NCBI GenBank assembly: GCA_017419405.1
Contig: JAFOLH010000008.1
Coordinates: 372,001 to 436,000, forward strand
DNA from: Renibacterium sp.
GTDB lineage: Bacteria; Actinomycetota; Actinomycetes; Actinomycetales; Micrococcaceae
Length of the DNA stretch: 64,000 nucleotides
Direction: 5' to 3'
In this document: positions 54,792 through 57,478 of the stretch, one piece after another
Numbering within the stretch: the first letter of the stretch is position 1
How the letters are laid out: every line of letters starts with the position of its first letter
The notes under the pieces: generated by a model
Databases searched by the model: none
What the model was told of the DNA's origin: nothing
The model's input: only the letters and a program-made list of their open reading frames with translations
Position numbers and translations under genes: made by a program

Positions 54792-55397
54792 TCAGGCCGG
54801 CCGGTGCACCTGCAGGATCCGGAAGGATTTCGCGGTGCTGTGCCGGGCCACCTCCAGCTCCGGGAAAGTCTCGGCGAGCCAGCGCTGCAGCGAGTCCGAG
54901 CCCAGGTTCTTCTGCACCACCAAGTAGGCGCTGCCATCAGGAGCCAGCCGGGGGAGCCAGGTGTGCAGGATCCCGTGCAGCACTTCCTTGCCGACCCGGA
55001 TCGGCGGGTTGGACCAGATGGTTTGGAACTGCAGGGTGGCGTCGATCTGTTCCGGCAGCCCGGTCCGGAGATTGGCCAGACCGAGGGCCGCGGCGTTGTC
55101 CGCGGTCAAGCCGAGTGACCGTTCGTTGACGTCCACTGCGTAGACCGTGGCGTTCGGGGAGTGCAGGGCCAGGCTCAGCGCGATCGGCCCCCATCCGCAA
55201 CCGATGTCCAGCAGGTTGCCGGCTTCCGCCGGAGCGGGTGCCCCGGCGAGCAGGACGGCGGTGCCTTTGTCGACCCCGTCGGGCGAGAAGATCCCGGAAT
55301 CCGTTTGCAGGAGGCGCTCCTGGCCGGCCAGGACGACCCGGAGTTCGCGGCGTTTGTGGCTGCTGCCGGGCTGGGCGCTGAAGTAATGATCGGACAT
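54792..55397 (-). CDS. RsmC/RlmG-type class I methyltransferase
   Basis: A 201-residue methyltransferase: DIGCGWGPIALSLAL SAM motif and WSNPPIRVGKEVLH, the N-P-P motif of base N-methylating rRNA enzymes. SSHKRRELRVVLAGQERLLQTDSGIFSPDGVD is the usual N-terminal segment, read here in parts. It probably methylates rRNA. Two ATGs are adjacent; 55397 is preferred because a TAATCT -10 box stands seven bases before it. Confidence 0.85.
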   Translation of the reverse strand: MSDHYFSAQPGSSHKRRELRVVLAGQERLLQTDSGIFSPDGVDKGTAVLLAGAPAPAEAGNLLDIGCGWGPIALSLALHSPNATVYAVDVNERSLGLTADNAAALGLANLRTGLPEQIDATLQFQTIWSNPPIRVGKEVLHGILHTWLPRLAPDGSAYLVVQKNLGSDSLQRWLAETFPELEVARHSTAKSFRILQVHRPA

Positions 55398-55404
55398 CAT
55401 GGCA

Positions 55405-55410
55405 AGATTA
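55405..55410 (-). promoter_or_regulatory. -10 box of the methyltransferase gene, leaderless layout
   Basis: TAATCT on the minus strand is seven bases from ATG 55397 and four from ATG 55400; the former spacing matches the other leaderless genes. Confidence 0.5.
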
Positions 55411-55471
55411 CCGCACTGGATTGCGCCTGGTCTCGGCATCGCCGGCCGGCTCCGGATGGCGGTCATGGCCT

Positions 55472-55479
55472 GATATACT
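55472..55479 (+). promoter_or_regulatory. Extended -10 promoter upstream of hflX
   Basis: TG-A-TATACT (TG extension 55471-55472, hexamer 55474-55479) is the best -10 element in the window. No convincing -35 precedes it, as is usual for extended -10 promoters. It is six bases from the ATG of a five-codon ORF and about 300 bases from hflX. Confidence 0.65.
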
Positions 55480-55485
55480 TGGAGC

Positions 55486-55503
55486 ATGTTGATTTTCCTC
55501 TGA
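55486..55503 (+). CDS. Putative five-codon leader peptide MLIFL upstream of hflX
   Basis: ATG TTG ATT TTC CTC TGA encodes Met-Leu-Ile-Phe-Leu. The ATG is exactly six bases after a strong -10 box, so the transcript would be leaderless and begin with this ORF. The peptide resembles the hydrophobic macrolide-resistance pentapeptides known from E. coli (Met-X-Leu/Ile-Phe-Val type). Its position before hflX, a ribosome-splitting factor, suggests translational control in response to ribosome-targeting drugs. This is inference and the ORF is too short for any homology support. Confidence 0.45.
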   Translation: MLIFL

Positions 55504-55777
55504 TCCACCAAACGTTCTCTGCCGCTGTCTGTGCGGCGACGTTGGCCTGCTGAATCGCGTTGCACGCAGATTCGCCGCTGGAAATCCGAGGAATACATGC
55601 CACCCCCTTTCTCGTTGCGCTGTTGCGCATTCCACTGTGAACGGTCCGACGACGCTTTTCGCCTGCCGCCGGCCAATCCCTGATCGCGCTCAAATACGCG
55701 CCATTGGACCAGGAAACCGAACTCCGCCGCGGTTGCGGACGCGTTTGCCGTTGCCGCCGATATCTCAGGAGGTCCCC
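55504..55777 (+). promoter_or_regulatory. Leader region of hflX with possible hairpins
   Basis: The 275 bases between the mini-ORF and hflX hold no convincing gene. Stems are possible at 55521-55537 (GCCGC/GCGGC) and in a CCGC-ggtt-GCGG segment near 55730, followed by a short T stretch. Alternative pairing could make this an attenuator or mask the AGGAGG site at 55767-55772. Confidence 0.4.
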
Positions 55778-57478
55778 ATGACCGAACTCAAACCCCTTGC
55801 CGGTACCGGCAACACCGAAGACCGAACTGCCGGTGTTGTCAGTGCGCCGGACTACGATGGAACCCTCAGCTCTTCAAAGGAGAATATGACCACGCAGGAA
55901 AATGCCGAACCGTCAGCCGTGCAGCCGGAATCCGGCAACCAGGACGCCGGGCAGGATATGAGTCCGGCGGAGATCCAAGCCGTCATCGACCGGATCCTCG
56001 CCAAAGACACCGGAGGCGAACTTCCCGAATCGGCTGCGGACGCGGGTGTCCTGGCTGGCCGGGCCCAGGCGTTGAGCCGCTTGGCGCGCGAACACGGCGA
56101 TTACGACGGCGATCAGGAAGATCTGCAGGAACGGCGGGCGCTCGGCCGGGTCGCCGGGTTGTCGACCGAACTCGACGATGTCACCGAGGTCGAATACCGG
56201 CAGCTCCGGCTGGAACGTGTGGTGCTTGCCGGGTTGTGGAGTGAGGGGACTCTGGCCGACGCCGAGAATTCCCTCCGCGAATTGGCGGCGCTCGCGGAAA
56301 CGGCGGGTTCGGAAGTCCTGGACGGCCTGGTGCAACGCCGCTCGAAACCGGATCCGGGGACTTTCCTCGGCTCTGGAAAAGCCCTCGAACTCAAGGACGT
56401 GGTTTCGGCGACCGGAGCGGACACCGTGGTGGTCGACGCCGAATTGGCGCCGTCCCAACGCCGCGCCTTGGAGGACATCGTCAAGGTCAAGGTGATCGAT
56501 CGGACCGCCCTGATCCTGGACATCTTCGCGCAGCACGCGAAGTCGCGGGAAGGCAAAGCCCAAGTCGAATTGGCCCAGCTCGAATATCTCCTGCCGCGGT
56601 TGCGCGGTTGGGGCGAATCGATGTCTCGCCAGGCCGGTGGCCAGGTGGGCGGCGCCGGCGCCGGCATGGGATCCCGAGGGCCTGGTGAAACCAAGATCGA
56701 GCTGGACCGGCGACGGATCCGGAGCCGGATGGCCAAGCTGCGCCGGGAAATCGCCGCGATGAAGCCCGCCCGGGAAACCAAACGGGCCAATCGCCGCCGT
56801 TCCGAAATTCCTTCAGTGGCGATTGCCGGATACACCAACGCCGGCAAATCGTCGATCCTGAACCGCTTGACGCATGCCGGAGTATTGGTGCAGAACGCGC
56901 TCTTCGCGACCTTGGATCCCACGGTGCGCAAGGCGGAAACCGCGGATGGGTTCGGCTTCACACTGGCCGACACGGTCGGCTTCGTCCGTTCGCTGCCGAC
57001 CCAGCTGGTGGAGGCCTTCCGGTCGACGCTGGAGGAAGTGGCGGATGCCGATTTGATCCTGCACGTGGTGGATGTGGCGCACCCGGACCCGGAAGGGCAG
57101 ATCGCCGCGGTCCGGCAAGTGCTGGCCGAAGTCGATGCGCGGAAGATCCCGGAAATCATCGTGCTGAACAAAGCCGATGCCGCGGATCCGATCGTGGTGC
57201 AACGCCTGATCCAGCGCGAGCCGCATTCCGTGCTCGTCTCGGCCCGGACCGGACAGGGGATCGAGGAACTCCTGGAGCTGGTCAGCCAGTCGATTCCCCG
57301 CCCGAATGTGGAACTGGAACTGTTGATTCCCTACGACCGCGGCGATCTGGTGAGCAAACTGCACCAATCGGATGCCGAGATCGTGGCTCAGGAACACCAG
57401 GAAACCGGAACCCGGCTCAGCGTCAAAGTGCGCGAGGGCCTGGCCGCGGAATTGGCGGCGTTCGCCGTCGAGGCGTGA
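55778..57478 (+). CDS. hflX: Ribosome-associated GTPase HflX
   Basis: A 566-residue HflX that splits stalled or idle 70S ribosomes. A 100-residue acidic, low-complexity N-terminal extension precedes the HflX domain (GSGKALELKD, VVVDAELAPSQRRALED, FAQHAKSREGKAQVELAQLEYLLPRL in parts, GMGSRGPGETKIELDRR). The G domain has G1 GYTNAGKSS, G3 DTVGF and G4 NKAD. ATG 55778 has AGGAGG five bases before it; ATG 55886, also with AAAGGAG, would give a protein without most of the extension. Confidence 0.94.
   Translation: MTELKPLAGTGNTEDRTAGVVSAPDYDGTLSSSKENMTTQENAEPSAVQPESGNQDAGQDMSPAEIQAVIDRILAKDTGGELPESAADAGVLAGRAQALSRLAREHGDYDGDQEDLQERRALGRVAGLSTELDDVTEVEYRQLRLERVVLAGLWSEGTLADAENSLRELAALAETAGSEVLDGLVQRRSKPDPGTFLGSGKALELKDVVSATGADTVVVDAELAPSQRRALEDIVKVKVIDRTALILDIFAQHAKSREGKAQVELAQLEYLLPRLRGWGESMSRQAGGQVGGAGAGMGSRGPGETKIELDRRRIRSRMAKLRREIAAMKPARETKRANRRRSEIPSVAIAGYTNAGKSSILNRLTHAGVLVQNALFATLDPTVRKAETADGFGFTLADTVGFVRSLPTQLVEAFRSTLEEVADADLILHVVDVAHPDPEGQIAAVRQVLAEVDARKIPEIIVLNKADAADPIVVQRLIQREPHSVLVSARTGQGIEELLELVSQSIPRPNVELELLIPYDRGDLVSKLHQSDAEIVAQEHQETGTRLSVKVREGLAAELAAFAVEA

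Follow-up and report, generated by a model that had tools for sequence, protein, structure and literature searches.

A conserved, apparently leaderless mini-ORF upstream of hflX in Micrococcaceae and its possible role in antibiotic sensing

The window analysed here is a stretch of 64,000 nucleotides from Renibacterium sp. (GCA_017419405.1, contig JAFOLH010000008.1, positions 372,001 to 436,000); features are on its plus strand unless stated otherwise. Read from the start conserved in relatives, hflX occupies 55886..57478, and its product (scanned from 55778) matches TIGR03156, GTP_HflX, with E 2.3e-131. Downstream lies a helicase gene from 57486 (Helicase_C_2, E 1e-37), named dinG in the earlier note. 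Well upstream of hflX, next to a methyltransferase gene that runs divergently (MTS domain, E 1.6e-27), we found a putative distal promoter, P2, with the extended -10 TGATATACT at 55471..55479, which was read directly from the sequence and has counterparts in relatives. It is composed of TG (55471-55472) and the -10 TATACT (55474-55479), followed by the six bases TGGAGC and then by a mini-ORF of five codons at 55486..55503 (ATG TTG ATT TTC CTC TGA, encoding MLIFL; ATG 55486-55488, TGA 55501-55503). Direct reading thus confirmed the extended -10 six bases before the ATG of the MLIFL ORF. From this spacing and the missing Shine-Dalgarno (SD) sequence we infer that the mini-ORF start is leaderless.

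This arrangement is rare. The pattern TGATATACT, four to eight nucleotides and ATG matches once in the 3.76-Mb genome, with no match in the reversed control, and neither strand of the window holds a second -10 followed after 6-7 nt by an ATG ORF of 3-8 codons. A sigma-70 consensus scan, which requires a -35, gave no promoter in 55380-55900.

The conserved hflX start, ATG 55886, is preceded by the SD AAAGGAG, and an equivalent ATG is common to relatives. Just upstream lies a putative proximal promoter, P1, with the -10-like TACGAT at 55853..55858. Its counterparts, read by eye in relatives, follow TANNNT (TATTCT in the Arthrobacter group) and were seen, again by eye, also in loci without the mini-ORF. 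Since hflX has a conserved start and a -10-like site of its own, the leader would add regulated hflX expression rather than be its sole control.

A possible in-frame N-terminal HflX extension of 36 codons, with the SD AGGAGG and ATG 55778, spans 55778..55885. The distance of 275 nt to hflX given in the earlier note holds for this upstream ATG, which lies about 275 nt past the mini-ORF stop, and does not hold for the conserved start at 55886. In 40 of 47 loci of the Arthrobacter group (genus g10), a second in-frame start, preceded by an SD-like site, sits 90 nt further upstream. Over 132 loci the long start tracks the mini-ORF: both are found in 73, neither in 33, the mini-ORF only in 24 and the long start only in 2, a tally that includes one false mini-ORF (VSVGGPD, L224). 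A test for protein-level selection on the extension gave no sign of it in g10, where the three codon positions vary alike (0.145, 0.171, 0.156); for this reason we treat a long HflX form as just a possibility. Within g10 leaders, about 60-76 nt before the core hflX ATG, lies a 15-nt block, TCAGCCCAGCGCGAA, conserved to at least 95% at each position, third codon positions included, among 38 distinct g10 sequences.

Conservation of the mini-ORF and its peptide

Conservation of the mini-ORF in relatives had been set beforehand as a test on which the earlier proposal could fall, and the proposal stands up to it. The architecture (a -10, 6-7 nt, and an ORF of 3-7 codons) precedes hflX in 96 of the 132 loci compared, which represent 14 of 32 Micrococcaceae genera; apart from g10, most of the other 31 genera in this set are represented by one genome each. 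The false mini-ORF of L224 was removed by rule from this count and from the folding, register and SD analyses, and L188 was left out as a duplicate genome. Named loci are the best 80 of 585 confirmed relatives, and part of the fetched hflX regions was drawn from among the matches listed in the hflX search.

Among the 96 loci, the distance between -10 and ATG is 7 nt in 74 and 6 nt in 22, though 5-7 or 5-8 was allowed. TG of the extended -10 is present in 82, just 7 have an SD-like 4-mer before the mini-ORF, and the stops are mixed (38 TAG, 32 TGA, 26 TAA). Outside the hflX upstream zone, the loci of 45 relatives contain 2 such sites in 613,322 bases, neither with an extended -10.

Conservation is most pronounced in g10. 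MFLIFE behind a -10 occurs in 60 of 395 family genomes, once per genome (reversed control 0). All 60 matches belong to g10 and all are spaced by 7 nt where 5-7 was allowed, and hflX lies downstream on the same strand at all 30 fetched sites. The remaining 17 of the 77 g10 genomes carry a variant in the same place in 16 cases, the leader being lost in the other one; the mini-ORF is therefore present in 76 of 77 genomes. The variants are MFLNFK, MILNFK, MFLNSK, MILISK, MFMIFE, MFLVFE, MFIILV, MILNFQ and MFLI. Because 30 of the 47 g10 loci in the 132-locus set had been found with the MFLIFE pattern itself, 76 of 77 is the fair count for this genus.

BLAST of the window leader against seven genomes of its own genus returned the genome itself, the same species (99%) and, in one congener, a 39-nt match (85%) corresponding to the stretch of promoter and mini-ORF. 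All six of these genomes that have hflX possess the mini-ORF, encoding MLIFL in four, MFLFI in another and VKIFL, read from GTG, in the last. The seventh (G005, 97% complete) gave no hflX match at E <= 1e-80 and weak matches to other GTPases.

Peptides of other genera include MTLFFV, MTLIFV, MTYL, MTYLFFV, MLSFL, MRLFK and MLFFN, and further MWIYLR, MANK, MWNK, MKNL and MFTS. Named examples are Pseudarthrobacter enclensis (MFLIFE), Paenarthrobacter nicotinovorans (MFLVFE), Glutamicibacter nicotianae (MTFIFV), Sinomonas (MRLFK) and Micrococcus lylae (MFLMYL). The mini-ORF is absent in 18 of 32 genera, most of them seen in one genome, and none was found in 35 loci with other family or MAG labels (L050-L084; at most 700 nt searched). 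In Arthrobacter-labelled loci without the mini-ORF, the leader is missing and a methyltransferase gene lies close to hflX. In locus L198, a natural variant, the AUG-UGG with which MWNK begins is replaced by AUG-UGA, and the rest of the leader is intact. A record titled Vibrio cholerae strain 35D (L025), probably mislabelled, also contains an hflX locus of the Arthrobacter kind (76% identity).

The open-licence literature, among the matches listed, gave no description of a mini-ORF before hflX in Micrococcaceae. The published program uORF4u, which looks for conserved uORFs, is described as including an SD search, and leaderless uORFs may therefore be overlooked.

Comparison of the peptides revealed that their C-terminal ends are far from random, with an enriched register L-x-F-x-stop. 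Of 43 distinct peptides with at least 4 residues, 25 have F or Y in the penultimate position (11.1 expected), and of the 31 with at least 5 residues, 17 have L fourth from the end (7.4 expected); none of 20,000 shuffles, which permute residues 2 to n and ignore kinship within genera, reached either value. When one peptide per genus is taken, F/Y next to last averages 8.1 of up to 14 against 3.5 expected. The last residue is never F or Y among the distinct peptides. The exact LIF-x end is found in MLIFL of the window, MFLIFE, MTLIFV and MILIFV, and looser L-x-F-x in others. The register is missing from genus g8, from part of g28 and from some others, where the peptides are of a lysine type (MWNK, MANK, MKNK, MKK). 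Changes within the ORF among MFLIFE leaders are synonymous, and 16 leaders fetched through HflX encode MFLIFE in 14 cases, MFLVFE in one and MFLNFR in one. The RLR arrest motif is absent from 45 distinct peptides. The register coincides with that of MsrDL, an experimentally proven macrolide-arrest peptide, and the linkage to hflX is kept; both lend support to the suggestion, already made in the earlier note, that the peptide is a sensor.

The leader RNA between mini-ORF and hflX

Folding of the 48 nt that follow the mini-ORF stop (-16.2 kcal/mol) predicts a hairpin at 55508..55545, beginning 4 nt downstream of the stop codon. Its g10 counterpart, ACGGGY...RCCCGU, starts five nt past the stop in most leaders, and in 87 of 93 distinct leaders, folded without shuffle control, a predicted hairpin starts at most 14 nt from the stop. 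Folding in excess of shuffled sequences is greatest in the first 50 nt of the leader (mean z -0.81). When genera are averaged, this lead is slight (-0.45, compared with -0.35 to 0.12 in later parts), so the folding signal comes mainly from g10. The modelled hairpin thus usually starts near where a stop-stalled ribosome would end; the 5' arm of the g10 consensus hairpin corresponds to nt 27-31, and a ribosome at the MsrDL toeprint position (+31 to +33 in PMC10314930) would reach past it.

A further element, H2, was recognized in 56 of 60 g10 leaders (e.g. L012:2677-2700); it consists of GCG-AYGCA, a hairpin of variable size, and UUC-CGC. Its positions pair in 92.1% of cells against 90.5% in shuffles, 9 of 500 of which reach this value, and in 41.5-57.8% when the two sides are slid. 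The covariation score is 0.112, with no shuffle as high; both partners vary in only 2 of 9 pairs, for which reason we regard the covariation support for an H2 structure as weak to moderate. As a marker of a regulon H2 was discarded, its matches being found in 56 of 81 genomes, mostly at one site each. At gathering score, Rfam gave no match in the window, in eight hflX loci, where the search also covered H2, or in five MGTLIFE-site loci (see below).

The window leader (55504..55777) is rich in C and poor in G, its C-G excess being matched by 4.9% of same-length stretches of the window. In 23 named loci a median of 0.1% of same-length stretches is as extreme (range 0-22.9%). A consensus scan detected no intrinsic terminator on the hflX strand of the window leader or of L012, and one on the opposite strand of the window leader. 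Exposure of the SD by a ribosome at the mini-ORF stop was tried as well and rejected: over 71 leaders with a detectable upstream start the mean change in unpairedness is 0.016, with a rise of more than 0.1 in 10 leaders and a fall in 6 (thermodynamic fold; upstream-start SD only). The attenuation proposed in the earlier note thus finds no support in a classical form, there being no intrinsic terminator in the two leaders scanned and no systematic SD unmasking in the 71. Termination of the Rho type would fit the C-rich leader.

In one congener (L186, G001), a GNAT acetyltransferase gene (PF00583, E 1.6e-10) lies at 622-1206, between mini-ORF and hflX. The window leader (55580-55785) matches the end of this gene over 35 nt and possibly contains its remnant.

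Possible function of the mini-ORF

The end of the mini-ORF peptide often resembles a macrolide-sensing peptide, and the mini-ORF may therefore switch hflX on when antibiotics stall ribosomes. In the reading we prefer, to which we would give about an even chance, the mini-ORF is a leaderless, MsrDL-like arrest leader that sits on the distal hflX transcript and probably acts by releasing it from Rho-type termination. P2 would make an hflX mRNA whose first base is that of the AUG of the 3-7-codon ORF, and ribosomes would load on this AUG directly. With a tunnel-binding drug present (a cladinose macrolide being the likeliest), the ribosome would be halted at the stop codon by its nascent L-x-F-x peptide, as in MsrDL, and the halted ribosome would cover the 5' arm of the hairpin just past it. 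RNA polymerase would then continue through the C-rich leader by antitermination, probably by being spared from Rho. HflX output would rise under this induction, and HflX would split stalled ribosomes, while P1 would supply basal hflX expression.

MsrDL (MYLIFM) is the proven macrolide-arrest leader of the streptococcal ABC-F gene msrD (PMC10314930). As described there, it is likewise a very short hydrophobic ORF ending in L-I-F-x-stop that controls a resistance factor acting on the ribosome, and arrest at its stop covers the following RNA structure; the hflX case would be similar if arrest occurs. The msrDL leader, in the same account, has an intrinsic terminator with Rho excluded, an ABC-F target and a preference for a UAA stop; the hflX leader, in contrast, has an apparently leaderless start, a C-rich leader, mixed stops and no intrinsic terminator that we could find. 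The Listeria hflXr leader rli80 (PMC6310831) also places a small ORF before an hflX homologue. It encodes 14 residues with an RLR motif and works by a terminator/anti-terminator switch, whereas the Micrococcaceae ORF has 3-7 codons, no RLR and no intrinsic terminator found. Since terminator and RLR are both missing from our findings, we do not claim membership in the MsrDL or HflXr kind of attenuator. The leader ORF toiL of E. coli topAI responds to several drug classes, and Rho-dependent termination is part of its output, a likeness to the scheme above; it differs in being SD-led rather than leaderless, in acting by SD unmasking and in its target (PMC12121999).

Several observations count against the arrest reading: the lysine-type peptides, the 18 of 32 genera without mini-ORF, the AUG-UGA of L198, the lack of an intrinsic terminator in the two leaders scanned, the unchanged SD accessibility and the modest strength of the hairpin signal relative to shuffles. 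The mixed stops do so too, given the preference of MsrDL for UAA, as does the msrD system not being Rho-dependent (both from PMC10314930).

Several other explanations have to be weighed against arrest by the peptide. Leaderless mRNAs can use 70S ribosomes, and our main rival builds on this: the mini-ORF would be a general sensor of slow or unsplit 70S ribosomes, in which start and length outweigh sequence and many causes of stalled initiation or early elongation would act alike, HflX lowering 70S and so closing a feedback loop. Start, spacing and the length of 3-7 codons are indeed common across genera, while the peptide changes, lysine types included, and toiL sets a precedent for a response to several drug classes (same source). 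A sensor indifferent to sequence, however, sits badly with a C-terminal register so far from random and with MFLIFE kept in 60 of 77 g10 genomes; we consider it possible but rather improbable. Alternatively, the site may be maintained because the distal transcript needs its promoter, its start and its RNA structure, and the ORF would be translated only incidentally. Conservation does extend to the -10, the hairpin and the H2 element, and L198 bears a start-stop ORF within an intact leader; against this speak the synonymous changes among MFLIFE leaders and the recurrence of the register across genera, which make the explanation unlikely in our view.

Short peptides conferring macrolide resistance (E-peptides) are known from E. 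coli as pentapeptides with a consensus of their own. The mini-ORF peptide, similar in length and hydrophobic composition, might act in the same way in cis on its own ribosome, without arrest. Such a peptide would have no need of a long conserved leader or of a fixed place at hflX, both of which we find, and we hold this to be very improbable. That a chance ORF lies behind a chance promoter is scarcely credible at all: short ORFs are common in principle, but the two background sites in 613,322 bases stand against 96 of 132 hflX loci, and conservation refutes it.

Should the preferred reading, macrolide-dependent arrest on a leaderless hflX transcript, prove true, the system would combine a leader peptide that senses drugs with translation from a leaderless start, and an MsrDL-like arrest motif would have been reached in another phylum. 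It would also offer a candidate answer to how hflX is induced in actinobacteria without WhiB7. The AT-hook marks WhiB7; the eight Micrococcaceae genomes searched (the window's own, one congener and six g10) each encode exactly two WhiB proteins, all of which lack a GRP AT-hook, and no WhiB7-like protein was seen. In Streptomyces, hflX is activated by WblC/WhiB7, and sensitivity to erythromycin is raised fourfold in an hflX mutant (PMC7157823); this is antibiotic-linked control of hflX in an actinobacterium too, differing in being trans-acting.

A second, apparently leaderless mini-ORF, MGTLIFE

A search of 44 genomes for leaderless ORFs ending in LIFx-stop gave 38 sites, 24 at hflX and 14 elsewhere, the latter all encoding MGTLIFE (reversed control 0). 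MGTLIFE behind a -10 occurs in 43 of 395 genomes from five genera, once per genome, at a spacing of 6 or 7 nt (5-8 allowed) and with synonymous codon changes; it is found in none of the seven genomes of the window's own genus. The LIFE-stop end is common to MGTLIFE and to MFLIFE of the hflX leaders. Through the LIF-x-stop register a further group of small proteins, uncharacterised so far, comes into view that would stand under a leader of this type.

Tentatively, and with less confidence than for hflX itself, we suggest that Micrococcaceae might use leaderless LIF-x-stop arrest minigenes as a macrolide sensor, one for HflX and the second, MGTLIFE, for small basic proteins with VRW or MPHSS tails, which may be unrecognised ribosome-protection or hibernation factors. 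A mini-ORF that begins at the first base of its mRNA would tie sensing to 70S initiation, and splitting factor and sensor would therefore form a feedback loop.

Downstream genes are known from 21 of the 43 sites (L265-L285). The next gene begins 109-306 nt downstream. In 15 of these sites its product is small and basic, with 64-91 residues and a VRW end; in three it is likewise small and basic, with 85-87 residues and the end QMPHSS, and in L275 this type is placed after the VRW type. At one site no downstream protein was found. Five of the small proteins were searched against Pfam and NCBIfam without a family above cut-off, and two against the PDB without a confident relative. At the remaining two sites, both in genus g5, where Pfam gave no family above cut-off for the one protein searched, the product is longer (188-199 residues) and carries the same kind of tail, ending in KLRW.
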